A stretch of DNA of 64,000 bases from the NCBI RefSeq assembly GCF_000190315.1, contig NC_015151.1, positions 1,302,001 through 1,366,000 of the forward strand. Direction: 5' to 3'. The position numbers and the translations under genes are program-made. The DNA comes from Vulcanisaeta moutnovskia 768-28. GTDB lineage: Archaea; Thermoproteota; Thermoprotei; Thermoproteales; Thermocladiaceae. Positions 38,115 through 57,202 of the stretch are shown in pieces. Position 1 is the first letter of the stretch; each line of letters opens with the position of its first letter. The notes under the pieces were generated by a model that was not told the DNA's origin, ran no database searches, and worked only from the letters and a program-made list of their open reading frames with translations.

Positions 38115-38456
38115 ATGTGGAAGAGGGTTTCCATACTGGTTAAGGTTTTCGAGAAGAGGAACTCCGTGATTACCTGGGTAGATAACAAGCCAATACTCGT
38201 GGTTAAATACGGCAATAACTACTACGGGACGCTCGCCATATGCGCCCACATGGGCTGCGCACTACTAACAGACGTCAATGGCTACATAGCAACTTGCCCA
38301 GCGCATCAAGCAAAATACGACGTCAGGACCGGCGAAATGATTGAGAAGCCGCAGGTGAGGCCTGACGTGCTCTGTGAATACGCTGACGTGAAGACACCAT
38401 TACCAACCTATAAAGTTAGGGTCACGCAGGATGGATTTCTCGAGATTGACGTCTAG
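38115..38456 (+). CDS. Rieske-type [2Fe-2S] ferredoxin
   Basis: 113 residues. The Rieske ligands are Cys43/His45 (CAHMGC) and Cys61/His64 (CPAHQAKYDVRTGE). There is no membrane anchor or signal, so this is a soluble ferredoxin-type Rieske protein of the dioxygenase or nitrite-reductase small-subunit kind, not a bc1 subunit. The short loop AHMGCALLTD lacks the second-cysteine disulfide partner in the CPAH box, consistent with the low-potential type. No oxygenase or reductase gene is next to it. The electron partner is unknown. It converges with the AGPS-like gene. Confidence 0.9.
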   Translation: MWKRVSILVKVFEKRNSVITWVDNKPILVVKYGNNYYGTLAICAHMGCALLTDVNGYIATCPAHQAKYDVRTGEMIEKPQVRPDVLCEYADVKTPLPTYKVRVTQDGFLEIDV

Positions 38457-38566: not shown

Positions 38567-39961
38567 TTAATCAGTGAAGAACATGCCATTCTTCGTATTT
38601 AACACTCCCTTACCATCCAAAGCCTTCTTTATTGATCTTAGCACGTTAAGCGCATTACCAAGCTCGTACTTTAACCATGTAGACCGTACAATACCAACAC
38701 CGTGATGATGGCTTATGGAACCACCGTTCCTTAATGTGGTCTCCATTGCCTTATTCCATATTTCCCAGTAGGTATTTACGTTGGGCTTGAATAGTATTGT
38801 GAAGTATATGCATGCGCCGTTAATGTATAGGTGCGATATGTGGGCCATGACGCCTAATACACCGTTAGTCTTAAGCAGTGAATCCCTGAAATCCATATAC
38901 AATGAGGCAATCCTGGACCAGGTGGCCGAAACCTCTATCGTGTCGAACCACAACCCATACCTCTTAACCATCTCAATCTCCTCCTCAACGTTGAATCTCG
39001 TCCTTAACCAATCCTCAAAGTACTTGCTCCCCACGTAATCACCGCCGCGACTTCTAATAATCTCATCAGCCCTCCTCCACAGCACTTGTACCAGATCATC
39101 ATAGTAACCCTCAAAGCTAATTATTAGTAATGACTTATTAAGGCCGAACCTAAGCGATGCCTCGCTCTCATCATAAAGCCTAGCAACGGCTGGAACAATC
39201 CTCTTCATCATTAATTCCCTAAGAGCCTCGATACCCTGCTCAAGGGAGTTAAATCCGTATGCGCCGTAAATGGTAGATGTTGGTAACGGCACGATCCTAA
39301 GCACGGCCTTTGTGACCACGCCGAGCATGCCCTCCGATCCAATGAATAGGTACTTAAGTGATGGTCCTGTCGATGCACGGGGGACATTATTGCCCCTCAA
39401 CCAAGTGACTTCGCCATTGGGTAGTACAACCTCAAGGTTTATCACAATGTCCTCTATATTACCGTATAACGTGCTATACTGGCCCGAGCTCATTGTAGCT
39501 ATTAAGCCGCCTATTGTTGCGTAATTGAATGATTGCGGAATATGCCTAAGGCTATACCCCATCTCATTCAGTTTAATCTCAACATCCCTCAACCTGGCGC
39601 CAGCCTCAACGGTTATTAATGAGTCATAAGTATTAATGTCTATGACCCTATTCAATTTAGTCATGTCAATAACTATTGACCCAGCGCCGTATGATGCACC
39701 TGTAACACTTGAGCCACCACCATAAACAACCACGGGCACTACATCATTGCTCTCATTAATTATTCTCAGGGTTAGCGATATATCATTCACGCTCTCGGGC
39801 ATAATAACCGCGAGAGGCCTTGGTAACTCCTCGTTAAGTACCTGCTCACGCATTATTAATAACGGCCAGAAATCCCTGGAGTACCTCCTTAATGCCTCGT
39901 CATTTATTATTACCTTATCATGACTCAAGGCGTTAATTAGTTTCTCAATTATGCTCTGCAT
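38567..39961 (-). CDS. FAD-linked oxidase of the GlcD/alkylglycerone-phosphate synthase type
   Basis: 464 residues. FAD_binding_4 core: VVVYGGGSSVTGASYG and IGGLIATMSSGQYST; then SEGMLGVVTKAVLRIVP. Near the C-terminus SHHHGVG (His418-420) is the alkyl-DHAP synthase triple-histidine motif. Known relatives are alkylglycerone-phosphate synthase, glycolate/lactate dehydrogenases and FAD-dependent glycerol-phosphate oxidising proteins. The gene is the last of a five-gene overlapping operon with glycerol kinase-like and GlpA/GlpB-like genes (13 nt overlap upstream). I infer oxidation of a glycerol-derived 2-hydroxy acid or phosphate; true AGPS activity has no obvious place in an archaeon. Confidence 0.83.
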   Translation of the reverse strand: MQSIIEKLINALSHDKVIINDEALRRYSRDFWPLLIMREQVLNEELPRPLAVIMPESVNDISLTLRIINESNDVVPVVVYGGGSSVTGASYGAGSIVIDMTKLNRVIDINTYDSLITVEAGARLRDVEIKLNEMGYSLRHIPQSFNYATIGGLIATMSSGQYSTLYGNIEDIVINLEVVLPNGEVTWLRGNNVPRASTGPSLKYLFIGSEGMLGVVTKAVLRIVPLPTSTIYGAYGFNSLEQGIEALRELMMKRIVPAVARLYDESEASLRFGLNKSLLIISFEGYYDDLVQVLWRRADEIIRSRGGDYVGSKYFEDWLRTRFNVEEEIEMVKRYGLWFDTIEVSATWSRIASLYMDFRDSLLKTNGVLGVMAHISHLYINGACIYFTILFKPNVNTYWEIWNKAMETTLRNGGSISHHHGVGIVRSTWLKYELGNALNVLRSIKKALDGKGVLNTKNGMFFTD

Positions 39962-41355
39962 CTCATCCCCTCAACAATCCTCTTAACAACATCCCTATTT
40001 AATGATAGTCTCTCCTCGCCAGGCTTAATTCGTAACTCCACGTTAACATGAATTCCCCTAATAATGTCATTCAATGACCAATCACCCCTAAACACCTTCA
40101 ATAATGCAGCAACACCCCTAGCCGTTGCCTCCACATCCCTCTGTCTTTCAACGACGGTGCCTAGTGCCGTAGCCAATAACCTAAGGAATAGGGCACTCCT
40201 TGATAAGCCACCATCAACCCTAACAACATCAACCCTTGAGTAATTCTTAATTTTATCGAAGATTAGGCCTATTAATTGAACGACGCCCTCAACAACAGCC
40301 CTCACGAAGGCCTCCCTAGTGGTGTTTAGCGTTAAGCCATCAATTAAACCCCTTGCGCATGGCCTAGGCGGCACGTTAACACCGGCCAATGCTGGTATAA
40401 CCACTATATCCTGGGTACTAACATTGGTTAAACCATCTAATTCCTGCGGTGAAGACAGCAGTCCAAGCTTAACTAGCCAGTCAATTACCGAACCGGTCGC
40501 TGGCAGGAAACCCTCAACTCCATAAAACACACTACCTCCATACTTAAGTATGAGGAGCGGTAATAAACCACCACCAACAAGTCTAAACCTATCAATAACG
40601 GCGTCAACGAAGGAACCTGTACCATTCGTAACCTTACCACAACCAACGCTTAGGCAGCCCTCACCAACCATTGCTGCTTGCTGGTCTGCTATTAAAACCC
40701 CAACGGTCATTCCGTTGGCCTCCCCAAACTCATGAACATTATCAACAACCTCAGGACTTACCTCCCTAGGTATTTTCAGTAAATCATAAATTAGGTCAAT
40801 ACTACTTAAATTACCTGGATGCCAAAGTCCCGTTAATGCCTCATTACCGGCATCATTAACATACCTATTACTAACGAGATACGCCAGGTATGAACTCAAT
40901 GTACCAATGAATACTTCACCCTTCCTTGCACGTTCAATTAAATCCTGCCTATTCCTCAACAACCAGAGTACTTGGGTAACGGGTGATGTCGGTATTAGGA
41001 TACTGCTCATTAGTGGCAAATGTCTCATGAATGAGTATGGGAATTTATTAACAATCTCCAGACCTCTCCTGTCTAACCACGTGATTATATTAATGAGGGG
41101 ATTACCCGACTTGTCCCAGGCGATTATTGATGCCCTATATGTCGAAATACCGATGTACTTAACACCCTTATCCCTAGCCGTATTAATTAAGTGATTGAAA
41201 GCTAACCTAAGCGCGTTTGCGTCCTGCTCAACGTAGTAATTGGCGGGGAATAGCATTGGCACGTTTACAGTCTCGGAATACCTCTGGTTAAGCTCATCAT
41301 CATATATTATGAGCTTAATGTTTGTGGTCCCAACATCAATGACCCCAAGACTCAT
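39949..41355 (-). CDS. FGGY-family carbohydrate kinase, glycerol kinase-like
   Basis: 468 residues. N-terminal phosphate-1 motif VIDVGTTNIKLIIYD; ITWLDRRG matches the kinase substrate loop; GVLIADQQAAMVGEGCLSVG then NGTGSF is the catalytic Asp region as in glycerol kinase; VRVDGGLSRSALFLRLLAT is the C-terminal adenosine motif. Phosphorylation of glycerol to glycerol 3-phosphate is the best guess from neighbours; xylulose or other polyols are alternatives because glycerol kinases are usually near 500 residues. It overlaps its neighbours by ATGA upstream and 13 nt downstream. Confidence 0.85.
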   Translation of the reverse strand: MSLGVIDVGTTNIKLIIYDDELNQRYSETVNVPMLFPANYYVEQDANALRLAFNHLINTARDKGVKYIGISTYRASIIAWDKSGNPLINIITWLDRRGLEIVNKFPYSFMRHLPLMSSILIPTSPVTQVLWLLRNRQDLIERARKGEVFIGTLSSYLAYLVSNRYVNDAGNEALTGLWHPGNLSSIDLIYDLLKIPREVSPEVVDNVHEFGEANGMTVGVLIADQQAAMVGEGCLSVGCGKVTNGTGSFVDAVIDRFRLVGGGLLPLLILKYGGSVFYGVEGFLPATGSVIDWLVKLGLLSSPQELDGLTNVSTQDIVVIPALAGVNVPPRPCARGLIDGLTLNTTREAFVRAVVEGVVQLIGLIFDKIKNYSRVDVVRVDGGLSRSALFLRLLATALGTVVERQRDVEATARGVAALLKVFRGDWSLNDIIRGIHVNVELRIKPGEERLSLNRDVVKRIVEGMRCRA

Positions 41356-42290
41356 GAAACCACCCTCCTAATGCTTACCCTCTCCACGTCCGGTAATTCA
41401 ATTACTGCGGCATCACCATTAATTACGTACTCCCTATCATTAATCATGACCCTACATCCACCGCAGGGAATTATTACCCTACGTATATCCCTACTAACCC
41501 TATTACCTGGGTAGATAGGTAAATCACTATTTATAGTTATGAACTCATTAGACTTACTCATTAATTCCCTAGCCATTATTTTACCACTCTCAATTACAAT
41601 GCTTGGGTCGTAGATTTCAATGGCTGATTGACCAACAGCCCTAAACTCAGGGAATGGATTAAAGGGTTTAAACACGGATATTACCAGGGTATCCGCAATA
41701 ACCCACTCATTATTCACTAAGACCCTCTCAACCCTACCTAAACCCTTAACATACCTAACCTTGCCAATAATGACCTCAACATCACCACTTGCAGTCCTAA
41801 CATTCAGTTTTGTTGGCGATACGACATGGGCAGTAGCACCGCGCCTCATTAATTCCCTGGCCAGTGATATGGCGTATGTATTGTCTCCGTAAATTATTAC
41901 GTTCTTGCCAGGTAATAAATCGTAATGCAGCATATCCAATACGGCATGGTGTGGGTAAATCCCCGCGGGTCTCTCACCATAAATACCCAACTCTGGCATT
42001 GTCATTACCCTAAATCCCGTAGCCACCAAGGCATTATCACTGAGTCTCCTGTAACCACCTCTCCAAACCTCGTATACAGTACTATCAATTTTAATGGCTG
42101 TTGTGATTAATCGAATATTAACCTCGTTCAATGCATCATTAATTACGCCCCTAACCTCAGGTATTAAGGCATGAATTCCACCAGCATAATCCCTATACTC
42201 AATTACCTCAATATCAACGCCTAACCTACGTAACTCCAGCGCCAGTGAGAGCCCGGCCAACCCAGCACCAATTACCGTGTAACCAACCAT
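41352..42290 (-). CDS. FAD/NAD(P)-dependent oxidoreductase, GlpB-like partner
   Basis: 312 residues. A dinucleotide fold opens the protein (VIGAGLAGLSLALELRRLG); ATGFRVMTMPELGIYGERPA and a second nucleotide-binding segment (NVIIYGDNTYAISLARELM) follow, as in COG0446-type proteins that pair with GlpA in archaea and Thermotoga. The C-terminus carries IIPCGGCRVMINDREY, perhaps replacing the separate small cysteine-rich subunit of such complexes. It overlaps glpA-like by 19 nt and the kinase gene by ATGA. I infer electron transfer from glycerol 3-phosphate oxidation to NAD or quinone. Confidence 0.8.
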   Translation of the reverse strand: MVGYTVIGAGLAGLSLALELRRLGVDIEVIEYRDYAGGIHALIPEVRGVINDALNEVNIRLITTAIKIDSTVYEVWRGGYRRLSDNALVATGFRVMTMPELGIYGERPAGIYPHHAVLDMLHYDLLPGKNVIIYGDNTYAISLARELMRRGATAHVVSPTKLNVRTASGDVEVIIGKVRYVKGLGRVERVLVNNEWVIADTLVISVFKPFNPFPEFRAVGQSAIEIYDPSIVIESGKIMARELMSKSNEFITINSDLPIYPGNRVSRDIRRVIIPCGGCRVMINDREYVINGDAAVIELPDVERVSIRRVVS

Positions 42291-43663
42291 GAACTACCAC
42301 CCGACTTGGTTAATTCCCTCGGTTCAATCCCCAACTCCTCAGAGATAACCTTAATTGCCCTACCAAGGCACATACCCTGACAAACACCCATGCCTAACCC
42401 AGTCCTGAAAATAACACCATCCAGCGTCCTAGCACCACGTCTTATCGCCTCACGAATATCGGCCCTAGTAACCCCCATACATGGGCAAACAACCTCGCCT
42501 TGGTCATCACTAATGGTTCCACTAGATTCAATGGCGTCCTTCGTCATTACCATGGGCTCCACCTCCTTAACGTCATCCTTGGGTACCAATTCTATTCCAG
42601 CACCACTAAGCATTTCAACTACCCTCTTAGCTATTGCTGGTGCTGCCGTTAGGCCAGGTGATTCAATACCCACTAAATGAATTACGTGCCTACCCAACCT
42701 GCTATACGTAATTATGAAATCATCACCCTCAGGTATAGGCCTAATACCCGCGTAGGCCCTTATTGGCGTGAAATCCCTATTCCTCAATAAGCCACTAAAC
42801 TTCCTGGCTAATACATTGATGTCATCCTCATTAACAGCCCTATCATCCCTACCACTCACTGATAGACTTGGTCCCCATATGGTCGTGTTGAATACAGTGG
42901 GTATGATAGCACCACCCTTAGTCCTTGGGTTAGGTATTAACTGGAGCGGTGCAATTATATTCCTGGTTTGCTCACCCCAAAACACAAGCATTACGCCCTT
43001 ACCGAACTCAAGCCTATACTCATCATCAAATAACCTGGCAATGTCTGCCGAGTAAAGCCCAGCGGCATTAATGACATACCTAGTCCTGTACTCACCCCTA
43101 TTAGTAATAATGATAAACTCATCATCTAAAGCCCTAACGCTCCTAACCTCGGTATTAAAGGCAAAGTCAACACCATTCAACCTACAGAAGTTGAATAGTT
43201 GTGACACTAATTCGAAGGAGTTTATGACCCCATAACCCTCAACCTCAACCGCACCTAAACCGTTGATGTTGGGTTCACGTTTACGTAATCCCCGCGGGCC
43301 GAGAATCCTAACCCTAAAGCCGCGCTTACCATATACATAATTGAGTATTAACCACACGGCGGGTAGCGCAATTAGGTGGCTAAGGTTCTGGGCCACTAAT
43401 AAGGTGCTTAATCTCTTGACCCTAACATGAAGCCTCTTTGCAATGCCATCATATAGCCTATTGCCCTCAACGGCTAATTTACTCCTTAGTGAATTGAATG
43501 GTGGTTGAACAACATGAACAACACCTGCATGTCCCTTGGAAACACCGAAGCCGGGCTCGGTCTCCTTATCAATGACGATAACCCTAACCCTATAATGCGC
43601 AAGTTCATAGGCAATGAACAAACCAACAACGCCAGAACCTATTATGGCAACGTCATAACTCAT
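42272..43663 (-). CDS. glpA: GlpA-like FAD-dependent glycerol-3-phosphate dehydrogenase with BFD-like domain
   Basis: About 463 residues from ATG 43663 (the longer frame adds a GTG start at 43672). DAO fold: VAIIGSGVVGLFIAYELAHY, FGVSKGHAGVVH, and a catalytic-side AGIRPIPEGDDFII. The C-terminal 70 residues hold a BFD-like [2Fe-2S] site: CPCMGVTRADI and CQGMC. This combination is the anaerobic GlpA type. It oxidises glycerol 3-phosphate to dihydroxyacetone phosphate. Relatives such as L-2-hydroxyglutarate oxidase share the fold; the kinase neighbour supports glycerol phosphate. It overlaps the phosphoesterase gene upstream by 11 nt. Confidence 0.85.
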   Translation of the reverse strand: MSYDVAIIGSGVVGLFIAYELAHYRVRVIVIDKETEPGFGVSKGHAGVVHVVQPPFNSLRSKLAVEGNRLYDGIAKRLHVRVKRLSTLLVAQNLSHLIALPAVWLILNYVYGKRGFRVRILGPRGLRKREPNINGLGAVEVEGYGVINSFELVSQLFNFCRLNGVDFAFNTEVRSVRALDDEFIIITNRGEYRTRYVINAAGLYSADIARLFDDEYRLEFGKGVMLVFWGEQTRNIIAPLQLIPNPRTKGGAIIPTVFNTTIWGPSLSVSGRDDRAVNEDDINVLARKFSGLLRNRDFTPIRAYAGIRPIPEGDDFIITYSRLGRHVIHLVGIESPGLTAAPAIAKRVVEMLSGAGIELVPKDDVKEVEPMVMTKDAIESSGTISDDQGEVVCPCMGVTRADIREAIRRGARTLDGVIFRTGLGMGVCQGMCLGRAIKVISEELGIEPRELTKSGGSSWLVTR

Positions 43664-45737
43664 GACCAACACCCCGCCTAATACCTCCTATCTGCATTAC
43701 GAACCAGGTAATAGTTAGTAGGAGGCCTATTAATTCCGTGGGTAGTAGCAATGTTGATAGTCCTGGTTGGTATAGCCTTATGTATGTGAAGGCAATCATT
43801 AGCATTACTATGTAGGAAAGGAGCCCCGCTGAAACCACATAACCCAAGCCCCTGGCCCAGGTATTATTGCTTACGTATGCCCTAAGCATTAATAATGTAA
43901 TTAGCATTATAGGCGCTGTGGATAGTAAGCCGTAGATTAATAATGGTTTGTCGCTCATTAAGTAGGATTGAATGGCTTGAACATAAATAAGTACGTATAG
44001 AAGTACTGGGATAATTATTGAAAGGATTATCAATGTGTGCAAGCCATGCCTAATCCGCATTAGTACTAAGCCTATTATTGAGAATAGTATTAAGCCTATT
44101 AAATACCCTAGAAGCAGTAGTGGTGCCTCACCAGTATTGCCTAGGTAATTAAGTAAGCCCGTTGTTAGGGTTATTAGTCCAATAATTGATGCAGTAACCA
44201 CTGAACCACTAATAACACTAAGCACCTTCACGGGCACTGACCTAGGCGCCTTCCTGCCCATAGGTAGTAATGACACTGCTGTTAGGTCTATGATCAGGGC
44301 TATTATTAGCCATAGGAATAATGGTGTATAAATCACTGGTACGTACGCAGAATTCCCACTTACATATACCTGTGACCCTAATTCAGCAAGCGTTATATTA
44401 CTAAGGCCATACCTTGAGTATGGAAGCTCATTAAGCGATATCTGCAGTGTTAATGGGAATAGGCTTGATAAGTCCCTGTAATTGGATACGTTGGGTAATG
44501 AATATATATTGTCTATTAATGGGAATCCTTGACTAAATACTATTGGCCCTCTGCTCATGTTGAAGTAGAAGAAGTCAAGGGGTATGTTGCTCTTCAGCAC
44601 GTACTCGTTCAGGGCTGGTAGTTCCCAGTTATAATCAATGAAGGCTATTAATGAGGCATGCGTGAGTAGTGTATGCGATACGTAATCCTCCTTGGCGTAG
44701 GGTGATATGACTATTAGGGGGACCCTGACACCCAGTGGTTCACCATTAATTATTGGTGGTGGTACATGGTCGTAATAACCACCGAATTCATCCCAGGTTA
44801 TGAAAATGACCGTTGAATTCCATATTGGGCTCTCCTCAACCGTATTAATTATGTAAAGAAGCCAAGCCTCACCATACAACATGTTGTTTGGTGGCCCCAT
44901 GTCATTTATTGGGTTTGGCATTACCCATGAAACCGCGGGTAACGAACCATTCATGACCTCACTAATGAAGTCACTCCATGTCTGTACATGCGATGAGTAT
45001 CTATTAATACCGTAGAAATACTTAATATCGAGGAGGCTCGGAGGCTCCCTGGGGTCTATGTAGTATCCCCAACTCACGTGGTACTGGCACAACTCCGCAA
45101 ATATGCTCTCTTGAACTGGTATGTATGGTGGTGGGCCGTAATCATCTATGACAGGTGCATATGCCGCGTATAGGAAGAGGTGGTTTGGTGCACTTTCCGA
45201 GAGGTATGGCGTGAAGTAATTGTCGGCAAGCCCATACTCCTCAGCCAAATCCCAAATGGGTGCAACCTGATCAACAGTGTAGTAATAAAGCGACTGTGGG
45301 CCTGAACCCCTTACCCAACCATCCATTTTCCCGTAATCCCAATCTGCATGGTACGGTATATACCCCTCATTAGGATTCTTTGTGTAGTAAATACCTATAG
45401 GTACGGGCTCCAGATAACTGGGTATTTCACTCATGGTAAGTAGATTATTAGGTATCGTAAATTGAACAATTAAGGAACCGTTCAATGTACCGTTGGTTGG
45501 GTACACACCGAATATGTTGTCAAAGCTATGATTCTCCAGGAATATTATAATGACATGCTTAATGGGAGTCCTAGTACTCAATTGAGATGCTGTTAGGGTT
45601 TGGCATTGCGGTACCATAGAGATCAAGGCATTACCCTGGTATGTACCATAGATAAAAAGCCCAAGTAGTACTAGGGATAGGGCAATAGCCACTATAATTA
45701 TTATAGTGAATTGTAAACCATACTTACCAATCAACAT
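43653..45737 (-). CDS. Phospholipase C/acid phosphatase-type phosphoesterase fused to seven membrane helices
   Basis: 694 residues. An N-terminal anchor helix (FTIIIIVAIALSLVLLGLFI) is followed by a PF04185-type catalytic domain (about 58-400): KHVIIIFLENHSFDNIFG with the metal-binding Glu-Asn, APNHLFLYAA, FITWDEFGGYYDHVPPP and GVRVPLIVISPYA, then HASLIAFIDYNWELP. Seven hydrophobic helices fill about 475-690 (for example LFLWLIIALIIDLTAVSLLP and LHTLIILSIIIPVLLYVLIY). The catalytic domain should face outside, as it has NXT sites. It heads the operon with GlpA/GlpB-like, kinase and AGPS-like genes. Known relatives hydrolyse phosphodiesters or monoesters; glycerophospholipid or glycerol phosphate is my inferred substrate. 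Confidence 0.88.
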   Translation of the reverse strand: MLIGKYGLQFTIIIIVAIALSLVLLGLFIYGTYQGNALISMVPQCQTLTASQLSTRTPIKHVIIIFLENHSFDNIFGVYPTNGTLNGSLIVQFTIPNNLLTMSEIPSYLEPVPIGIYYTKNPNEGYIPYHADWDYGKMDGWVRGSGPQSLYYYTVDQVAPIWDLAEEYGLADNYFTPYLSESAPNHLFLYAAYAPVIDDYGPPPYIPVQESIFAELCQYHVSWGYYIDPREPPSLLDIKYFYGINRYSSHVQTWSDFISEVMNGSLPAVSWVMPNPINDMGPPNNMLYGEAWLLYIINTVEESPIWNSTVIFITWDEFGGYYDHVPPPIINGEPLGVRVPLIVISPYAKEDYVSHTLLTHASLIAFIDYNWELPALNEYVLKSNIPLDFFYFNMSRGPIVFSQGFPLIDNIYSLPNVSNYRDLSSLFPLTLQISLNELPYSRYGLSNITLAELGSQVYVSGNSAYVPVIYTPLFLWLIIALIIDLTAVSLLPMGRKAPRSVPVKVLSVISGSVVTASIIGLITLTTGLLNYLGNTGEAPLLLLGYLIGLILFSIIGLVLMRIRHGLHTLIILSIIIPVLLYVLIYVQAIQSYLMSDKPLLIYGLLSTAPIMLITLLMLRAYVSNNTWARGLGYVVSAGLLSYIVMLMIAFTYIRLYQPGLSTLLLPTELIGLLLTITWFVMQIGGIRRGVGHEL

Positions 45738-45817: not shown

Positions 45818-46591
45818 TTATTTACTCCACGGTCTCCAATCATAGAGATACCCACCGCTTATTATTGCAAGGACCGAGCCCCAGGTTAGGCCTCCAGCAG
45901 CGAGTATCCACATTAGTATACCAAGGAAGACCATTACCAAGCCCAATACTCTGCAAATCTCAGGCCTTGGATAGAGTAGTGGTACCAGTGATAGTATTAG
46001 GGTTATTCCACCAAGTATGAAGGCATTTATTAATGATGTGCTCACGAATAATACTCTGAAGTACATCATTGGCATTAGGAGGAGTATTACGGCTGATAGT
46101 GAACCCAGGTAAACTCCCCAGAAGGGTATCCTACCCCTGAGCGAGCGCCACTTATCCCTAATGAAGTAACCAATGAGTGGCGGTACCAATACTGCCAACA
46201 CTACGATGGGTGTCAAGGGTAGCGCAAAGAGTAGCGCTATCATTACGAAGAGGTATGAGGGCGGCTTAATCAAGGCGAGAAGTACTGAACTAACGTATAT
46301 GAATAATGCGTATACTATTATTAATGATATGAAGGTGTCAAGGCCCATCCTCCTAACCACACCTGGGTCATAATTATTCTCCTCCATAATAACCACGGGT
46401 ATAACGCCGATGAATACCACGGTCAGAAAAACCGCCAGGGTGAGGATTATTAATGCAAAACCAAGTAGTGACGGCCTAACCCAGAAGTAAATCCAAGTAA
46501 CCAGGTTCACGGCAAATAGGGCAGGTAGTATTATGACCTTACGTCTCCACATACTAACGAGACCGAAACCAAACCTAGTGAAGAAATCCAC
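45818..46591 (-). CDS. Polytopic membrane protein, unassigned
   Basis: 257 residues with six to eight hydrophobic helices (VIILPALFAVNLVTWIYFWV; LGFALIILTLAVFLTVVFIG; LFVMIALLFALPLTPIVVLA; GGITLILSLVPLLYP; ILMWILAAGGLTWGSVLAII). It begins with MDFFTRFGFGLVSMWRRKVI, a DUF-like opening with a basic cytosolic segment, seen in archaeal integral membrane proteins of unknown role. It sits 80 nt upstream of nothing on its own strand and is separated from the glycerol operon by an AT-rich gap that may hold its own promoter. I cannot assign a function. Confidence 0.72.
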   Translation of the reverse strand: MDFFTRFGFGLVSMWRRKVIILPALFAVNLVTWIYFWVRPSLLGFALIILTLAVFLTVVFIGVIPVVIMEENNYDPGVVRRMGLDTFISLIIVYALFIYVSSVLLALIKPPSYLFVMIALLFALPLTPIVVLAVLVPPLIGYFIRDKWRSLRGRIPFWGVYLGSLSAVILLLMPMMYFRVLFVSTSLINAFILGGITLILSLVPLLYPRPEICRVLGLVMVFLGILMWILAAGGLTWGSVLAIISGGYLYDWRPWSK

Positions 46592-46715
46592 AAATAACTA
46601 ATGTAAGGCATATCCTTTAAGGTTAATCCATATATAACCTTTATAGGTTATTAGAAAAATGAAAAAGAAAATAAATAGTAATTTTGATATAAATAAAACG
46701 TTAATGCCCATGGCC

Positions 46716-47330
46716 TTAACCAATCCCGTTACTTGGTACACTATTATACGTTGTTACACCACTTGAACTACAAACTATTACTGCTGGTGTCACTGTAACA
46801 TTTAATCCACTGTATGATAGGCCACCGACACTTACGTAGTATGCGTAAGTCGTTAAGCCATACATCGTACCACTGCTAATCGTTTGATTAACGACATATG
46901 GTAAGCCAGCCGCTATTATATTAACGCCACTTAAGCTACCTGACGTTGATGTCAGGTTGACCGCATACATGAATACGTTACTCATGCTCGCCGAACTCAT
47001 GCCTAGTGATGCTGTGATTTGAACAGTGGCTGTTGGGCAACTTGGCATTAGTGGGTTGGGTAGTGGTACCGTGACCGTCTTGCTAATGAGCTGACCATTA
47101 GGCGCACTCAGCGTACCTATTGACTGAGCAATCACTGGCGCATACTCACCTGATTGTGTTGATGTTGAGTAAACCCAGCCGTACATTAGGACGTTACTTA
47201 TTTGGGCCGTTGGTAGGTATATCTTGACTGGGCCCGGTATGTCGGCATTAATGGCAATACCCAACGTTGATGCAGCGATGAGTAGTGCTATCACGAGAAC
47301 AAAACCTATTGCTGTTAGTTTCCAGTTCAT
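46716..47330 (-). CDS. Secreted protein with signal helix, paralogue of 47449-47958
   Basis: 204 residues. A hydrophobic N-terminus (LTAIGFVLVIALLIAASTLG) is followed by a Ser/Thr/Val-rich beta-type domain. Two cysteines (SCPTA and VCSSS) could form a disulfide outside the cell. The segment MSSASMSNVFMYAVNLTSTS and the later YGLTTYAYYVSVGGLSYSG align by eye with MSSAVMQNVTVYAANITAT and YNVEIYAYYVNASSITYSS of the neighbour. I infer a duplicated surface protein family. Function unknown. Confidence 0.68.
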   Translation of the reverse strand: MNWKLTAIGFVLVIALLIAASTLGIAINADIPGPVKIYLPTAQISNVLMYGWVYSTSTQSGEYAPVIAQSIGTLSAPNGQLISKTVTVPLPNPLMPSCPTATVQITASLGMSSASMSNVFMYAVNLTSTSGSLSGVNIIAAGLPYVVNQTISSGTMYGLTTYAYYVSVGGLSYSGLNVTVTPAVIVCSSSGVTTYNSVPSNGIG

Positions 47331-47448
47331 ACTATTGTTTCTATCTCGTTTTAGTTCTAAAGTTTAGTCCATAAATATGACATATATTTATTGTAATAAA
47401 AGTTACTTAAGTAAAAGGATCAATTTCTAATTAAATTCTTTACATAAA

Positions 47449-47958
47449 TCAAGTGTCTAATTCGATCGAGGAGTACGTTATTGATGACGCATTAACGTAA
47501 TAGGCATATATCTCTACATTATAGAGCGGTAGTAATTCTAACACTATTTCTGATATTATCGACAGTACTCCCACGTTCTGTGGGGTTATTGTCACTGTTA
47601 TTCCTAAGACCGTGGCGGTTATATTCGCGGCATATACCGTAACATTTTGCATAACGGCACTACTCATGCTTATTGTAACATTATAACTGGAGTCAAATCC
47701 GATCATTAACTGCCCTGAAGGCATGTAAAGTGTACTGGCTTGGTAAACAACCACTGGTATGCCATCATAATTACCCGCGCTGAATGAGATATAACCTGAC
47801 GCCTTAATTACCGGTGAATATATGTAAATTATTGGGTCATTACTCATTCTTAATCCTCTCGATGATTTAAAATGGTCGTGATAAGATGCGCTTATGTTCA
47901 ATAAGATAATTGTTAATAATGCTCCTAAAATTAAAATGAGAATAAGTCCCTTATTCAT
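47449..47958 (-). CDS. Secreted protein with signal helix, paralogue of 46716-47330
   Basis: 169 residues: signal or anchor helix (LILILILGALLTIILLNISA), then a beta-rich exported domain with NVT, NIT and NAS sites. It shares the order of elements PSGQLMIG (neighbour PNGQLIS), MSSAVMQNVTVYAANIT and IYAYYVNASSITYSS with the protein at 46716, so the two are diverged tandem paralogues. It lacks the cysteines of its partner. The two genes are on the same strand, 118 nt apart. Surface location is inferred from the signal and glycosylation-like sites. Confidence 0.66.
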   Translation of the reverse strand: MNKGLILILILGALLTIILLNISASYHDHFKSSRGLRMSNDPIIYIYSPVIKASGYISFSAGNYDGIPVVVYQASTLYMPSGQLMIGFDSSYNVTISMSSAVMQNVTVYAANITATVLGITVTITPQNVGVLSIISEIVLELLPLYNVEIYAYYVNASSITYSSIELDT

Positions 47959-48035: not shown

Positions 48036-48824
48036 CTAACTCCAGGTTAATTTCCACTCCTTAACTCTCCTAACAATGCCCAGCTCCATGTCGCCCTCAA
48101 TGTAGAAGCCAGTAATTACTTGCGTCACCTTTATATCACTAAGTGGGTCGAAAGGTGTACCATCTAATTTTATCCTAGCCTCTCCGGCCCATATCTGTGG
48201 GCTCTCCCTTGGTGTGAATGTGAACTTTGCATACCAATGTATTAGCTGTGCAATACCGGGTGTACCATCCGGCAGTGGTGGTAATACCCTTACTGACAAT
48301 AGTGGGAACGTCACTGTATTGTCGGTCCTAGGCATTAATGCCTTAAACGCGTCCAACTGCTCAAGGCCCAACCTACTACTTAACGCAACCTCAGCCCTCA
48401 TTAACTCACCACCCCTCTCCAACGTGCCTATTGCTAATCCATAATCATTCACTAATAACCTAATGTCAGCAAGCTTCTTCGGCGCACCCGCCAACTCCCT
48501 ACCAGCCGCCAATGCCGCATCATTTGTCACGTAAATATACAGTATATAATAGGCAAGTTCAATACCCTCAGTCTTTACCGGTATCGCCACCAACGCCTCC
48601 CTGTAGACTCCAACGGTTGATATGCCATAATCACCAACCCAAAACGCGGTCACCTCAAGGGCTAGGTCAACACCCTCAGGCAATAGTGGCTCCACACTTT
48701 TCGGATCAATATTAGCCAACGCCATAACTACCCTAACCCTACTATAGTTTATGATTGATGATTGGGGATACAATGGTGCATTTAATGGTATTCCAAAACC
48801 CTTATCACCACCCTTAAGGACCAT
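48036..48824 (-). CDS. Acetoacetate decarboxylase-like protein
   Basis: 262 residues of the PF06314-type fold. The family motif AAGRELAGAPKKLADIRL (about 107-124) contains Lys116-Lys117, one of which is the expected Schiff-base lysine. Glu and hydrophobic residues nearby would lower its pKa. The C-terminal strands (ITGFYIEGDMELG) also fit. Known: ADC splits acetoacetate to acetone and CO2; homologues act on other beta-keto or pyruvoyl compounds. The gene precedes the acyl-CoA island and follows the acyl-CoA dehydrogenase gene on the same strand by 52 nt, so a role in a keto-acid branch is plausible. Confidence 0.83.
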   Translation of the reverse strand: MVLKGGDKGFGIPLNAPLYPQSSIINYSRVRVVMALANIDPKSVEPLLPEGVDLALEVTAFWVGDYGISTVGVYREALVAIPVKTEGIELAYYILYIYVTNDAALAAGRELAGAPKKLADIRLLVNDYGLAIGTLERGGELMRAEVALSSRLGLEQLDAFKALMPRTDNTVTFPLLSVRVLPPLPDGTPGIAQLIHWYAKFTFTPRESPQIWAGEARIKLDGTPFDPLSDIKVTQVITGFYIEGDMELGIVRRVKEWKLTWS

Positions 48825-48876
48825 TATACTTGATTTATATCTATTTAGATTTAAGTATTAGTACTATTTATATTAT

Positions 48877-50130
48877 TTACAAACCATAATTCTGAATAAT
48901 GTCATCAGCAGCATCAAGGCTTAACGTCTCCACTGTACCATCCTCAATGAGCAACGCCCTAGCATCCCTAAACAACTTCTCAATAATAAACTCCCTACTG
49001 AGTCCATAGGCGCCAAATACCTGCAGTGCATCGTGTGCAACCTCAAAGGCTATCTTCTTCGCATATATCTGGGCAGCCCTGGCATACCTAGGTGGTGTTG
49101 CGAATGACTGTTCAATAAAGAACTTAGTGTATACGTAGTCCATGGCCCTCCTAACGTAGTACCTGGCCGTCTCCACCCTCTCAAACATTTCATACATCCT
49201 CAACTTAATGTTCTTATGCTCAATCAATGACTTACCACCCTGTACACGGGTCTTCGCATACCTCAGGGCTTCCTCAAATGCCGCCCTTGCGAGCCCCACG
49301 GAGTACGCGCCCATGTTTACACTCGTTAAATTAAGTAGTTGATCTGAGAACACCTCATAGAATGGTGGTTGAACAATCACATAATCATCAGGTACATGTA
49401 CATTATCAAAGTATACGGGCCCCTGTGGGCAATCCCTATTACCAAGCATATCAACAGGCTCGCCCTTCCTAACACCCCTCAGGTTAAGTGGCATTATCAC
49501 GAATGCGCCATCCCTGAGACTCTTACCATCCTTTAACTGTGCGTGAAGGCCCATGTGGGTGCATATTGGCGCCGCTGATACCCAGGCGGACTTCTGTCCA
49601 TTTATGACCCACTCATCACCATCATGCTCAATAACCACGTTACCCCTACCGAAGGACCCAACATCCTTATCCCTAAAGGCCAGTATGTAGTCACTACCAT
49701 GCTCAGGCTCAGTAACTCCCCAACAACCGATGTACTTACCCTCAGTGTCCTCGAGCCAGGGCTTAACAAGCTCATCCCTAACCCTCTCTGAACCGAACAA
49801 TGCGGCTATTGTGAAGGGTATTGCGTCAACACCAATAAGTGTTGCGAAACCAAGACTAGCCCAGCCAAGTTCCTCATCAATTATGTACCTCTGTAGGTTC
49901 GTTAATTCCAAGCCACCACGCTCTTTCGGTAAGTGAATCTTATGTAGTTCCATCCTCTTCATCTCCTTAATTGCATCATATAACGGTGAACCAAGTGCGA
50001 TCCTATTCCTGGGTTCCATCCTATCCACCTTAATGGATAATGGCCTAAGGATCTCCTCAGCGAGCCTATGTATATTCCTCCTTATTAATTCATCCTCATT
50101 GGTTAATCTGTCAAGGTCCAGGAAGCTCAT
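48877..50130 (-). CDS. Acyl-CoA dehydrogenase
   Basis: 417 residues with the three-domain acyl-CoA dehydrogenase plan: helical N-terminus, middle beta domain with GCWGVTEPEHGSD and WVINGQKSAWVSAA (FAD and substrate contacts), and a helical C-terminus with QVFGAYGLSREFIIEKLFRD. IEDGTVETL near the end replaces the usual EGT segment. Known: these enzymes introduce the alpha-beta double bond in acyl-CoA and pass electrons to ETF or similar. Chain length is not evident. It is transcribed away from the SCP2 gene at 50254 across a 123 bp promoter region. Confidence 0.92.
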   Translation of the reverse strand: MSFLDLDRLTNEDELIRRNIHRLAEEILRPLSIKVDRMEPRNRIALGSPLYDAIKEMKRMELHKIHLPKERGGLELTNLQRYIIDEELGWASLGFATLIGVDAIPFTIAALFGSERVRDELVKPWLEDTEGKYIGCWGVTEPEHGSDYILAFRDKDVGSFGRGNVVIEHDGDEWVINGQKSAWVSAAPICTHMGLHAQLKDGKSLRDGAFVIMPLNLRGVRKGEPVDMLGNRDCPQGPVYFDNVHVPDDYVIVQPPFYEVFSDQLLNLTSVNMGAYSVGLARAAFEEALRYAKTRVQGGKSLIEHKNIKLRMYEMFERVETARYYVRRAMDYVYTKFFIEQSFATPPRYARAAQIYAKKIAFEVAHDALQVFGAYGLSREFIIEKLFRDARALLIEDGTVETLSLDAADDIIQNYGL

Positions 50131-50225
50131 TAATCCTAATTATATGTAGATATTTTAAACGTGATCACTATATATTATAACTAATTAATAATTAAATTAA
50201 ATAGTATTTATACAAATAATCCTTA

Positions 50226-50234
50226 ATTTAAAAA
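50226..50234 (+). promoter_or_regulatory. TATA box of the SCP2 protein gene
   Basis: ATTTAAAAA is centred about 25 nt before ATG 50254, predicting a leaderless or near-leaderless mRNA. Confidence 0.55.
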
Positions 50235-50253
50235 TGGATTTTAGTAATTATGT

Positions 50254-50721
50254 ATGTCAAGTGAGGGCTTTATATTCCCAAGTCCGCAATGGGCCGAGGC
50301 ATTTTGCAAGGCCTTAAATGAGAACCAGGAGTATAGGGAGGCTGCTAAGGATTGGATTTGGGATCTCGTTTTCGTGGCCTCTAACGTACCCAGTGCCGTG
50401 ATTAATACAGTCGCTCAACTAATGGGGCTTACCAACGTCACTTCAAGCGCTGGTGCCATGAAGTTTAAGCTTAGGAATGGTACATGCCAGGGCTCTGAGT
50501 TCTACATAGATGCCAGTAAGGCTGATGCTGATTATATACTCGAGGCCGATTATACCCTTTGGAAGGATTTAATACAGGGTAGGGTTGACCCAGTCGCTGC
50601 AATACTCTCGAGAAAGATAAGGGTGAAGAAGGGTAGTTTCTTAACGTTAATTCAGTTCTCATCAGCGGCAATAAAAATGACGAATACGGCCATGAAGGTA
50701 CCGACAAAGTTTGTTGTTTGA
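50254..50721 (+). CDS. SCP2 sterol-carrier-like lipid-binding protein, longer form
   Basis: 155 residues. The SCP2 core shows AMKFKLRNGTCQGSEFYIDA, then ADADYILEADYTLWKDLIQG and VDPVAAILSRKIRVKKGSFL, the typical order of ligand-binding strands and helices. The N-terminal 45 residues are helical. In archaea SCP2 domains are usually tied to acyl-CoA metabolism and may carry lipid or acyl chains. A second SCP2 protein is encoded at 54672. It lies between acyl-CoA dehydrogenase and alcohol dehydrogenase genes. Confidence 0.85.
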   Translation: MSSEGFIFPSPQWAEAFCKALNENQEYREAAKDWIWDLVFVASNVPSAVINTVAQLMGLTNVTSSAGAMKFKLRNGTCQGSEFYIDASKADADYILEADYTLWKDLIQGRVDPVAAILSRKIRVKKGSFLTLIQFSSAAIKMTNTAMKVPTKFVV

Positions 50722-50835
50722 CATTACCTGTAATAGTTTCACCTTAAAACTATACATATAATTATATAATTTATTTATAATAAAATAGTGATCTTAAGGT
50801 AATATGTTAAAAGCATTAACGTGCATTAAGTCTTC

Positions 50836-51882
50836 ATGAAGGCTGCAACATTTAGGGGACCGAGCAAGCCATACCTGGAAATTAAGGACGTACCGGCACC
50901 AAAGCCGGGATCTGACGAAATACTCGTTAAGGTTGCCGCAACTGGTATATGCCACAGCGACATACACCTGTTTAAGGGTGATTTCGGACCTGTAAGGCAA
51001 GGCTTTATACCAGGGCATGAGGTCTCGGGTTGGGTTGAGGAATTGGGACCAGATGTTAAGAATCCATGGGGCTTAAAGAAGGGTGATCCAGTAATTGTCT
51101 CTTGGATAGTCCCAGACGGCATTTGTAAGTACTGCGCCAGTGGTAAGGAGAATTACTGCCCGACAGCCGCTGGCAGGATGCCAGGCCTTGTTGGACTTAA
51201 TGGTGGTCATGCGGAATACATCACAATACCTGAAATAGCCGTTATACCCCTTGAGAAGGGTGTTGATGTTTACTACGCAGCACCAATTGCCTGCGCCTAT
51301 GGTACCGCGTATCACGCACTCAGGGAGGCTGGTGTTGGGCCTGGCACGAGCCTAGTGATAATAGGTGTTGGTGGTGTTGGTTTATCGGCGATTCAATTAG
51401 CCAGCGCCATGGGTGCATACCCAATAATTGCCGTAGACATTAGGGACTATGCGCTGGATAAGGCCAAGGAGCTTGGTGCTACCCACGTGATAAACTCGAC
51501 AAAGGAAGACCCAATTAGTAGGGTAAGGGATATACTCCCTGACGGTGCTGATGTTGTTCATGAGGCCAGACCAGAGCCTGATCTTAAATTATCCATGGAG
51601 GTCGTTGCTAGGTCTGGAACAATAGTGGTGACTGGACTTGGTGGTCCGAAGTCATCCTTTAGTGTGAACGTATTACCATTCGTCATTAATGGCATTAGGA
51701 TAATGGGTAGTTTAGGCTATAGACCTAGGCTTGACCTACCTGAGATAATTAGGCTAGTGGCTTCGGGTAAGGTGGATATTAAGAAGCTCGTCAGCCACGT
51801 ATATGCACCTGAGCAGATAAATGAGGCCTATGAAAACCTTGAGAAGGGGTTACATGCGAGGGCTATTGTTAAGTGGAGCTGA
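50836..51882 (+). CDS. Zinc-dependent alcohol dehydrogenase
   Basis: 348 residues, medium-chain type. Catalytic zinc ligands are Cys39 (TGICHSD) and His61-Glu62 (GHEVSG). The structural zinc loop reads DGICKYCASGKENYC: Cys97, Cys100 and Cys108 remain, while the first ligand position is Asp94, comparable to the acidic ligand in Sulfolobus ADH. NAD binding is at VIIGVGGVGLSAIQLA. A GTTAAAAGC box lies 26 nt before ATG 50836. It may oxidise a primary or secondary alcohol from the neighbouring keto/aldehyde pathway. It converges with the ThDP-enzyme gene. Confidence 0.92.
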   Translation: MKAATFRGPSKPYLEIKDVPAPKPGSDEILVKVAATGICHSDIHLFKGDFGPVRQGFIPGHEVSGWVEELGPDVKNPWGLKKGDPVIVSWIVPDGICKYCASGKENYCPTAAGRMPGLVGLNGGHAEYITIPEIAVIPLEKGVDVYYAAPIACAYGTAYHALREAGVGPGTSLVIIGVGGVGLSAIQLASAMGAYPIIAVDIRDYALDKAKELGATHVINSTKEDPISRVRDILPDGADVVHEARPEPDLKLSMEVVARSGTIVVTGLGGPKSSFSVNVLPFVINGIRIMGSLGYRPRLDLPEIIRLVASGKVDIKKLVSHVYAPEQINEAYENLEKGLHARAIVKWS

Positions 51883-51915
51883 GTAGTTATTATTTTAAAA
51901 TTGAATTGTAAACTC

Positions 51916-53619
51916 TTACCTCTTACCGAAGATGGTCATTACCTGCCTTGTTATTGGTGTTGGTATGGCGTCAGGATTTACGAGGACGTCTACAATGCAT
52001 GGTCCATTAAATCCATATATACACCTCTCCAGTCCGTCCTCAAGCTCCTTCCTATCACTAATCCTAACACAGCCTATGTTTAGTGACTCAGCGAATTTGC
52101 AGAAGTCCATGGGGTATGTATGCGATGCATAGACCTTACCACCATAGAGAAGCCTCTGCTGTAGTTTTAGGACTCCCTGAGCCCTATCATTAAATATCAC
52201 GAAGGCTATCTTAAGGTTTAGCTCGGCTGCCGTTGCTATTTCCATGCCGGTCATGAAGAATGCTGCGTCACCCGTAGTAGCCACCACGGTTGCCTCAGGC
52301 CTAGCCACCTTAGCGCCTATCGCTGCTGGTATTGCGAAGCCCAGTGATGTGAAGCCAGCCGGGTTGAAGTAAGTTCTTGGTTTATAAACGGGTAATTCAA
52401 ACATTGCGACTTGATTACCACCAGCATCGCATGTGACTACCGCCTTCCCCTCACGCATGTCGCTATCAATCACGTGGGCGAGCGCCCTCACAAGATCGCT
52501 TGGGTTTATCCTGGTCTCGTCATAACCAAGCTCCCTCAATTGTTGATTACCAACTGAAGCCCTAACCTCATCAATCAACTTAACCCCCCTATCCTTACCT
52601 GGGCCCCTACCCCTAACTCTATCATGCAATGCATTGAGGAATTCCAATGCATCAGAGATTATCGCAAGGTCCGTCTTGTAATTCTTACCAATATCATTAG
52701 GATCAACATTCACATGAATTAACCTACCCCTTATCGGTAGTGACCACATGCCAGTGCCCAACTCACTGAACCTAGTGCCTATGGCAAGCACTACATCCGC
52801 GTTCTCAACGAGTTTAACGGCTACGGTATCCCCAAAGTAACCTGCGGCTAAACCACCATGTAGTGGGTGGTCAAAGGGTATTGCGCCCTTACCCATCACT
52901 GAGGTAACGACTGGTGCACCAATTTCCTCAGCCACCCTAATAAGCACATCACCTGCGTTTGCCGCTATTACACCACCACCCACGTAAATAATGGGCCTCT
53001 CGGCATTGAGCAACTCCTTAACCGCCAAATCCACTAAAGCGGTGTCGGGTTTAATCCTTACGGGCTCCTCCTTGGTATAGCCAACCCACTCGGTCTCGCT
53101 TTCAATAATGTCCCTGGGCAACTCCACATAAACAGGCCCAGGCCTGCCTTCCCTAGTAACTCTAAATGCCTTGGCGAGGATCTTAGGTATTTCCCTAGGT
53201 TCCTCAGCCCTAATGGCTAGTTTCGTGAATGGCTTGAAAATACTTAATTGAGCATTGGCATCCCTGAATTCATGGTAATAACCCTTACCGGCGGTCCTTA
53301 TCGGCGTTAAACCAGCAAGTGCCACAATGGGGACACCCTCAACAGCGGCTTGGGCAAGTGGTGTTACTAGTCCCGTGGCTCCAGGCCCAGCCGTGCTTAT
53401 TAGAACACTAGTCCTTCCACTGGCTCTTGCGTAGCCATCTGCCATAAATCCCATACTTGGTTCGAAACGACCCAGTACATGCCTTATCCTCTCATGGTAA
53501 TCATGTAGAGCCGCGTATAGACCAAGTACGTGGGTCCCAGGTAAGCCAAAAACAGTGTCCACGCCCTCCTCTATTAGGGATTTGACTATGACCTCACCGC
53601 CACTGACCACACCCATCAC
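51916..53619 (-). CDS. Thiamine-diphosphate enzyme, acetolactate synthase/2-oxoacid decarboxylase superfamily
   Basis: 567 residues. Glu53 in GRFEPSMGFMADGYARAS is the conserved Glu that activates the cofactor; TTGDAAFFMTGMEIATAAEL with N later gives the GDA...N ThDP-Mg motif. GTHVLGLYAAL opens the Pyr domain; a central domain of the usual length follows. Alternatives include acetolactate synthase, 2-hydroxyacyl-CoA lyase and 2-oxoacid decarboxylase; no small ALS subunit is nearby. It starts within 4 nt (overlap) of the 2-hydroxyacid dehydrogenase stop, so the pair may convert a 2-hydroxyacid to a 2-oxoacid and then to an aldehyde or condensation product. Confidence 0.86.
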   Translation of the reverse strand: MMGVVSGGEVIVKSLIEEGVDTVFGLPGTHVLGLYAALHDYHERIRHVLGRFEPSMGFMADGYARASGRTSVLISTAGPGATGLVTPLAQAAVEGVPIVALAGLTPIRTAGKGYYHEFRDANAQLSIFKPFTKLAIRAEEPREIPKILAKAFRVTREGRPGPVYVELPRDIIESETEWVGYTKEEPVRIKPDTALVDLAVKELLNAERPIIYVGGGVIAANAGDVLIRVAEEIGAPVVTSVMGKGAIPFDHPLHGGLAAGYFGDTVAVKLVENADVVLAIGTRFSELGTGMWSLPIRGRLIHVNVDPNDIGKNYKTDLAIISDALEFLNALHDRVRGRGPGKDRGVKLIDEVRASVGNQQLRELGYDETRINPSDLVRALAHVIDSDMREGKAVVTCDAGGNQVAMFELPVYKPRTYFNPAGFTSLGFAIPAAIGAKVARPEATVVATTGDAAFFMTGMEIATAAELNLKIAFVIFNDRAQGVLKLQQRLLYGGKVYASHTYPMDFCKFAESLNIGCVRISDRKELEDGLERCIYGFNGPCIVDVLVNPDAIPTPITRQVMTIFGKR

Positions 53620-54572: not shown

Positions 54573-54671
54573 ATAATAATGCAGCACTTAATATAGTAAT
54601 AAGTATGCCTATTATTTATAGTACGGAGGAAAAATGTATATTTTAATTACTATGTATAAACCTATATATTA

Positions 54672-55010
54672 TCACGCACTACGTGCGGTATTCATGATAT
54701 CTATGAGAGTTGCCGCATCCATTATGTTACCTGTCACCTTAATCACTCCTGAGAAGTAAGCCTGCATTGCGTCGAGTTGCCCCTTAATTAACTTCAACAG
54801 ATTGTCCTTGTTTACCTGTATTGTGGCTGTCGGTGATTTATGAGTACCCTTATTAAGCTTCACAGTGCCTCCACCAACCTCAACATAAAATGGTTCGTAA
54901 CCCTCCCCAGTGAATTGAAACACCTTAACAGGCCCGCTAGCCTTACTGGCAAGTTTTGGTAGGGCCTTTTCAGTCATTGATTTTAGAAGTTCGAAGGGAT
55001 CCTCAGACAT
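54672..55010 (-). CDS. SCP2 sterol-carrier-like lipid-binding protein, short form
   Basis: 112 residues from ATG 55010; a TTG at 55019 is the alternative, since an ACTTAAAAT box lies about 27 nt before it. Core SCP2 features: GPVKVFQFTGEGYEPFYVEV, TIQVNKDNLLKLIKGQLDA and the C-terminal helix MDAATLIDIMNTARS. It is the near-minimal SCP2 domain. Adjacent to the fusion beta-oxidation enzyme gene, it may carry or present acyl-CoA substrates. Which lipid it binds is not visible. Confidence 0.85.
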   Translation of the reverse strand: MSEDPFELLKSMTEKALPKLASKASGPVKVFQFTGEGYEPFYVEVGGGTVKLNKGTHKSPTATIQVNKDNLLKLIKGQLDAMQAYFSGVIKVTGNIMDAATLIDIMNTARSA

Positions 55011-55075
55011 ATCAACCAAGAATAAGCATTGATTACCTGGATTTTAAGTAATGTTGCTATTTATACTATATACCA

Positions 55076-57070: not shown

Positions 57071-57193
57071 CAGTCACTCTGGCTCTAGGTAAGTTATTAA
57101 GTGCGATCTCAATTTACTCAAATTATTTGTGTCGAGGGTGTATATAATGAATATAGTGATAATGATTAAGCAATAGTGAACAGAGGGGCATTA

Positions 57194-57202
57194 TTATTTA
57201 AG
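57194..57202 (+). promoter_or_regulatory. TATA box of the thiolase operon
   Basis: TTATTTAAG is centred about 24 nt before ATG 57222, supporting that start and a leaderless transcript for the thiolase, DUF35 and hydratase genes. Confidence 0.6.

Follow-up and report, generated by a model that had tools for sequence, protein, structure and literature searches.

A conserved operon of Vulcanisaeta moutnovskia with an AGPS-like flavoprotein and its possible role in the breakdown of 1-O-substituted glycerols

Introduction

A survey of archaeal glycerol metabolism distinguishes the systems GlpABC, GlpA-SdhBCD, GlpA-CoxG and GlpTk-NOX-MOX (PMC11962113). Here we describe a five-gene operon of Vulcanisaeta moutnovskia 768-28, located in a stretch of 64,000 nucleotides (positions 1,302,001 to 1,366,000 of NC_015151.1; called the window in what follows) of a genome that consists of a single contig of 2,298,983 bases. 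With GlpK plus GlpABC, GlpA-CoxG or GlpTk-NOX-MOX the operon has in common a kinase, a FAD dehydrogenase of the DAO family and an electron-transfer partner of the iron-sulfur (FeS) or FAD type, but it differs from those glycerol systems (PMC11962113) in that its kinase lacks the full glycerol signature, that a phosphoesterase gene stands in front and that a gene has been added whose product resembles alkyl-dihydroxyacetone-phosphate (alkyl-DHAP) synthase, AGPS. A word search of the survey text found linkage to neither AGPS nor a phospholipase (PMC11962113).

The lipid-degradation cluster Saci_1103-1126 of Sulfolobus acidocaldarius (PMC6449355, PMC11962113) also has a glycerol kinase (GK) and a glycerol-3-phosphate dehydrogenase (G3PDH) beside beta-oxidation genes; it differs in possessing a canonical GK, GlpA-CoxG and esterases, and the locus presumed to represent it (L084) has no AGPS-like gene. 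Alkylglycerol ether bonds are broken by alkylglycerol monooxygenase, which needs O2 and tetrahydrobiopterin and has been described as the sole enzyme known to cleave alkylglycerol ethers, whereas the module proposed here would need no oxygen. Eukaryotic ether-lipid synthesis by AGPS and alkyl-DHAP reductase resembles the proposed pathway in the compounds DHAP, alkyl-DHAP and alkyl-glycerol 3-phosphate and in flavoenzyme fold and motif; in the operon the direction would be reversed, the dehydrogenase is of the FAD/FeS type and a kinase would feed the pathway. Taken in reverse, a kinase, a C2 dehydrogenase and AGPS correspond to the reactions that connect 1-O-alkylglycerol phosphate with DHAP in the eukaryotic pathway; in AGPS catalysis an acyl group on DHAP is replaced by an alkyl group with no net redox change.

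The reading that we favour, at somewhat short of even confidence, is that the operon serves the catabolism of 1-O-substituted glycerols, the likeliest being monoalkyl glycerol ethers and lyso-ether lipids. The broader proposal, that ether lipids are broken independently of O2 by an AGPS homologue working backwards and that this is widespread in Thermoproteota with a parallel form in bacteria, is put forward tentatively, as a possibility. Such an O2-free ether-cleaving pathway appears not to have been described before, and no description of an AGPS-GlpA-kinase module was found in the literature searched, which included few subscription papers.

Results

Five overlapping genes with a conserved core

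A first-pass annotation of the window had described five overlapping genes for the scavenging and oxidation of glycerophosphate. Inspection of the open reading frames (ORFs) recovered all five on the minus strand at the same coordinates, and Pfam bore out the families named (PF04185; DAO with Fer2_BFD; Pyr_redox; FGGY_N with FGGY_C; FAD_binding_4 with FAD-oxidase_C):

38567-39961, minus strand: AGPS-like flavoprotein of 464 aa, proposed to cleave the ether (FAD_binding_4 and FAD-oxidase_C)
39949-41355, minus strand: FGGY kinase of 468 aa, similar to glycerol kinase but changed in the substrate pocket (FGGY_N, FGGY_C)
41352-42290, minus strand: GlpB-like FAD/NAD oxidoreductase of 312 aa, presumably the partner in electron transfer (Pyr_redox_2, 7.8e-9)
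42272-43672, minus strand: GlpA-like FAD dehydrogenase of 466 aa that carries a BFD [2Fe-2S] domain at its C-terminus (DAO, 8e-55; Fer2_BFD, 1e-11)
43653-45737, minus strand: membrane-anchored exported phosphoesterase, 694 aa (PF04185 by Pfam; phospholipase C / acid phosphatase family)

Counted from the AGPS-like end, the overlaps are 13, 4, 19 and 20 nt, the last with a GTG start of the GlpA-like gene; the 11 nt given earlier for the junction with the phosphoesterase gene apply if the GlpA-like gene starts at an ATG three codons inside the GTG.

The same five genes, with the same order and overlap types, are present in other Vulcanisaeta at about 80% identity and in the divergent Vulcanisaeta L035 at about 60% protein identity; a contig scan with a single protein gave matches in Vulcanisaeta only. 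In locus L044, from another family of the order, the core GlpA-GlpB-FGGY-AGPS is present at about 40% identity (GlpB 32%) without the phosphoesterase. Across the phylum, kinase and AGPS-like gene lie close together (within about 8 kb) in 36 of 398 genomes, the 36 being counted by hand from the gene positions and belonging to 8 families; GlpA accompanies the pair in most cases and GlpB in many. From these and related genomes, 40 loci were inspected. The full four-gene set occurs in Thermofilum-like genomes and in several other families. AGPS-like and kinase genes are usually neighbours, and GlpB adjoins GlpA in most cassettes of the BFD type. One variant contains a GlpC-like subunit, identified in L066, and genes of GlpC-like length and place, judged by these two features alone, are found in L067, L068 and L070; a short variant consists of kinase, AGPS-like protein and a GlpA without BFD domain. 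The arrangement is beyond chance: order and overlap types recur within Vulcanisaeta, and the core recurs throughout the phylum with other neighbours. That the coupled genes serve one process, as had been suggested from the overlaps, is supported.

In the Thermofilum-like loci L057 (4981-7610), L058 and L094, the gene after the AGPS-like one encodes a product of about 257 aa whose 4Fe-4S match is weak; some loci of this type also carry a PEPCK_ATP-like protein of about 598 aa. In the draft Vulcanisaeta loci L032, L033, L040 and L045, otherwise conserved genes are interrupted by numerous frame breaks, which probably reflect errors of sequencing.

The last gene product resembles AGPS

Among solved structures the best relatives of the AGPS-like protein are AGPS (2uuu, 2e-58) and, far behind, D-lactate dehydrogenase (2e-33). 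When its predicted structure (pLDDT 86) was compared with known folds, the first 29 matches were all mammalian AGPS, and D-lactate dehydrogenases came next. The protein keeps the HHH motif as well as Arg419 and Tyr578, residues after which solved AGPS mutants are named, whereas the paralogues of D-lactate/glycolate type in the same loci carry EHG and no HHH. Fold and motif thus agree with AGPS, and the original assignment of the last gene stands: judged by structure search and modelled fold, its product resembles alkyl-DHAP synthase and not D-lactate dehydrogenase.

A second, distinct AGPS-like gene of the same genome is split into two frames (L048:6687-8059; C1:16716-18043) and is intact in the relatives L090 and L091. 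Its lone orthologue in L069, L072, L073 and L083 keeps HHH and lacks Arg419.

GlpA-like and GlpB-like proteins and the phosphoesterase

The best NCBIfam match of the GlpA-like protein is the type 2 glycerol-3-phosphate oxidase (8e-49), with 166.7 bits and hence below the equivalog cut-off of 460, and its nearest solved relative is the L-alpha-glycerophosphate oxidase 4x9m (9e-26). Besides the BFD domain, it retains a His, a Lys, an Arg and a Ser that match catalytic and substrate-site positions of GlpO in the alignment; the last three we take to be the substrate-site residues. In mpGlpO the active-site His is the catalytic base, and by analogy the His of the GlpA-like protein may have the same role. 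The operon contains no glpC and so does not show the canonical GlpABC arrangement, in which glpC lies beside glpA and glpB. A CGGC tail reported for the GlpB-like protein is present, but it reads CRGC or CKGC in close orthologues and distant ones have no such tail; a functional metal site was therefore rejected, and the tail is probably not functional.

The phosphoesterase matches PF04185 above cut-off (2.4e-67), contains the motifs ENHSFDN, SAPNHL and WDEFGGYYDH, and has one N-terminal hydrophobic segment and a C-terminal cluster of them past residue 463. Its nearest solved relatives are the acid phosphatase 2d1g (7e-35) and several phospholipases C. With 122.5 bits it stays below the cut-off of 580 for the phosphocholine-specific phospholipase C family TIGR03396, so its membership is that of the general PF04185 family. 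A synteny survey confirmed the linkage of the surface phosphoesterase to kinase and GlpA-type dehydrogenase in relatives: among the 14 genomes of the order that bear PF04185, 11 have it beside the cassette or cassette remains, and no cassette was found in the other three. The phosphoesterase is nevertheless the variable part, outside the conserved core. In locus L060 its place is taken by an unrelated phosphodiesterase-family protein of the same build, with N-terminal anchor, outer domain and several C-terminal hydrophobic segments.

The FGGY kinase lies outside the glycerol kinase clade

Glycerol is contacted in glycerol kinase by Arg83, Glu84, Tyr135, Asp245 and Phe270 (PMC3245297). The operon kinase has the GK fold (top fold match 6k78, 4.6e-41) and keeps the positions of Arg83, Asp245 and Phe270, but Glu84 is replaced by Ala and Tyr135 is lost, its loop being altered; it reaches 218 bits against the NCBIfam GlpK cut-off of 590. 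The same two of five contact residues are lacking in all 34 AGPS-linked GK-type kinases, archaeal and bacterial, in which position 84 is Ala, Ser, Gly or Thr, whereas Glu84 is kept in all canonical kinases examined (23/23), including that of V. moutnovskia itself and second copies in cassette genomes. In a kinase tree these 23 form one well-supported clade with the operon kinase outside, which argues that the latter does not belong to the glycerol kinases proper. With Glu84 and Tyr135 lost, the pocket would be open at the end expected to hold an alkyl group. In three cases (L085, L087 and L115), no AGPS-like gene was observed beside a kinase that lacks Glu84; in the genomes of L085 and L087, AGPS-GlpA lies elsewhere.

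These data bear on the original interpretation, in which glycerophosphodiesters or glycerol phosphate would be scavenged, glycerol taken up and converted by way of glycerol 3-phosphate to DHAP, and the AGPS-like protein would be an oxidase on the side. The coupling and conservation of phosphoesterase, kinase and GlpA-like genes, the GK fold and the GlpO-like active-site residues all fit such a scheme. However, two of the five glycerol contacts are gone; a canonical glycerol kinase with the full motif is encoded away from the operon, and two genes beyond it follows a G3PDH like that of S. acidocaldarius; the operon has no GlpF or other transporter; the phosphoesterase is not part of the core; and the cassette is present in a genome presumed to be that of Thermofilum uzonense, a species that does not grow on glycerol. 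As the kinase pocket is altered, a canonical kinase is available elsewhere and the AGPS-like enzyme would be left without a job, plain glycerol or glycerol phosphate as substrate is unsupported and we consider this scheme improbable. Its end product, a triose phosphate, is still likely.

A lipid-catabolic neighbourhood

Upstream of the operon, an island at 48036-62843 encodes functions of lipid catabolism:

48877-50130, minus strand: acyl-CoA dehydrogenase, start of the lipid-catabolic island (Acyl-CoA_dh domains)
50254-50721, plus strand: SCP2-like lipid-carrier protein (SCP2 weak, 0.0013, below cut-off)
50836-51882, plus strand: Zn alcohol dehydrogenase, candidate oxidiser of the released alcohol (ADH_N, ADH_zinc_N)
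55076-57070, minus strand: 3-hydroxyacyl-CoA dehydrogenase / enoyl-CoA hydratase fusion (3HCDH_N, 3.9e-71; ECH_1, 6e-65)
57222-58990, plus strand: thiolase (57222-58445) and DUF35-type partner (58442-58990), by Pfam
59001-59771, plus strand: enoyl-CoA hydratase (ECH_1, 2e-53)
61185-62843, minus strand: AMP-forming acyl-CoA ligase (AMP-binding, 1e-67)

Orthologues of the SCP2-like protein pass the SCP2 cut-off, with values up to 1.3e-12. Twenty cassette genomes contain an SCP2-like gene, and in 10 of them, from about six independent lineages, its distance from the cassette is no more than about 5 kb; under a simple model of uniform placement, such closeness would arise by chance with a probability of about 5e-11 by genome or 8e-7 by lineage (13 lineages, counted by hand). 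In L044 the core is directly beside an SCP2-like and an alcohol dehydrogenase gene, whose homologues in the window are 4.5-6 kb upstream of the operon, and homologues of the alcohol dehydrogenase also adjoin the cassette in L081 and L082. The acyl-CoA dehydrogenase is syntenic in L030, L031 and L035 and has homologues beside L060 and L075. In L035 a fatty-acyl-CoA ligase gene and a second AGPS-like gene follow the operon directly.

A role of the AGPS-like enzyme in making ethers, or in exchanging the chains of DHAP-type lipids that had been acquired from other microbes, has to be weighed here. AGPS is biosynthetic in eukaryotes, and Thermofilum pendens depends on the polar lipid fraction of Thermoproteus tenax while Thermofilum-like genomes carry the cassette; more generally, Thermofilum needs other Crenarchaeota as a source of lipids or culture filtrate, and glycerol does not support growth of T. 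uzonense. Yet the cassette has an oxidative dehydrogenase, accompanied by a GlpC-like subunit in some lineages, and beta-oxidation genes are found near the window operon, so that we regard remodelling or synthesis as highly improbable.

The island also holds an ADC-like protein, a thiamine pyrophosphate (TPP) enzyme, a 2-hydroxyacid dehydrogenase and an amidohydrolase. The TPP enzyme (acetolactate-synthase-like, BbmA-like) and the 2-hydroxyacid dehydrogenase are encoded by overlapping genes (51916-54587) that adjoin the cassette in L035, and the pair might provide a route from a 2-hydroxyacid to an aldehyde. Alpha-oxidation of phytanyl chains by a 2-hydroxyacyl-CoA lyase (TPP enzyme, 51916-53619) was considered and dropped because enzymes of the acetolactate-synthase type are clearly nearer, and a candidate FadR-type regulator at 62910-63581 turned out to be a methyltransferase. 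A sulredoxin-like Rieske protein (38115-38456), convergent with the operon, keeps its place in relatives. Upstream of the operon, at 45818-47958, lie genes for a membrane protein of the DUF6114 family and for two small proteins (204 and 169 aa) that have N-terminal hydrophobic segments and no Pfam match; all three keep their place in other Vulcanisaeta.

Bacterial parallels

By a protein search of plasmid records, a trio of glycerol-3-phosphate dehydrogenase, AGPS-like protein and FGGY kinase was detected in Novosphingobium, Paracoccus jeotgali and Microbacterium. The trio of P. jeotgali is followed by genes for an aldehyde dehydrogenase, two enoyl-CoA hydratases, an alcohol dehydrogenase and a thioesterase, and in Tsukamurella a glycerol-3-phosphate dehydrogenase and AGPS-like pair occurs with a protein of the diacylglycerol kinase family.

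Other bacterial clusters lend themselves to the main rival explanation, that a small, non-lipid glyceryl or polyol compound is degraded and that the AGPS-like protein acts as a common FAD-dependent dehydrogenase, with a hydroxyacid or polyol phosphate as its substrate. Genes for electron-transfer flavoprotein (ETF) subunits directly follow the AGPS-like gene in Enterococcus raffinosus and are nearby in Ilyobacter, the AGPS-like gene is accompanied by PdxA and a four-carbon-acid-sugar kinase in Methylobacterium and by xylulokinase-type kinases elsewhere, and D-lactate dehydrogenases are the next-best fold matches of the operon protein. However, the pocket and DQQ motifs that the cassette kinases have are missing from the FGGY kinases encoded in those clusters, and lipid-type neighbours accompany many archaeal cassettes as well as two bacterial ones of GlpD type, so that for the operon a small substrate seems rather unlikely.

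In an E. coli record (L096:5027-10437), an AGPS-like gene, which we take to be ygcU, lies about 2.5 kb from an FGGY kinase gene of the sugar-acid-cluster type, presumably ygcE; no paper on the function of the former was found in the literature searched.

Discussion

From the observed gene order, conservation, fold, residues and neighbours, we infer substrates, a direction for the AGPS-like step and a link to the neighbouring genes as follows. The surface phosphoesterase would strip the phosphate head group outside the cell, supplying alkylglycerol from lyso-ether phospholipid, and the alkylglycerol would enter the cell by itself; such a substrate would be membrane-soluble, and therefore no transporter would be needed. 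The FGGY kinase would then phosphorylate the free end to give alkylglycerol phosphate, and the GlpA/GlpB-like complex would oxidise C2 to yield 1-O-alkyl-DHAP, electrons passing via flavin and [2Fe-2S] to a carrier. In AGPS it is the C2 ketone that renders the oxygen at C1 exchangeable, and we propose that for this reason the C2 dehydrogenase would act first and the three genes travel together. The AGPS-like enzyme would reverse the alkyl-DHAP synthase reaction, the nucleophile being water or a carboxylate and not an alkoxide; the products would be a long-chain alcohol and DHAP (or acyl-DHAP), and the alcohol could be passed through the alcohol dehydrogenase, the acyl-CoA ligase and the beta-oxidation enzymes encoded next door. 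As a free C2 hydroxyl would be required, bacterial-type monoethers or lyso-lipids are the likely targets; for intact archaeal diethers, an additional step would have to come first.

Several points weigh against an ether-lipid substrate. No demonstration of hydrolytic reversal of AGPS was found in the literature examined. Normal archaeal lipids have ethers at C2 as well as C3, so that C2 oxidation could reach monoethers only; moreover, enzymes of the GlpA type would favour substrates of bacterial stereochemistry. The place aligned with Arg515 of guinea-pig AGPS, to which we presume a role in that enzyme, is occupied by Ile or Glu, although the alignment is approximate here. Many independent losses of Glu84 were considered and rejected: the difference is a single change on the kinase tree, and the 34 of 34 are therefore not 34 independent events. 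AGPS-like relatives also occur in bacterial clusters with ETF, short-chain dehydrogenase/reductase and major facilitator superfamily genes or with sugar-acid kinases, for which a lipid substrate is unlikely, and no recognised beta-oxidation genes lie beside the Thermofilum-type cassettes in the loci inspected.

Kinases annotated as GlpK beside AGPS-like genes, for example in Microbacterium, may be something other than glycerol kinases. Archaea and many thermophilic bacteria produce ether lipids in large amounts. If the proposed breakdown of alkylglycerols is right, it would provide named genes, and a mechanism modelled on that of a human enzyme studied in depth, for the recycling of ether lipids by anaerobes.

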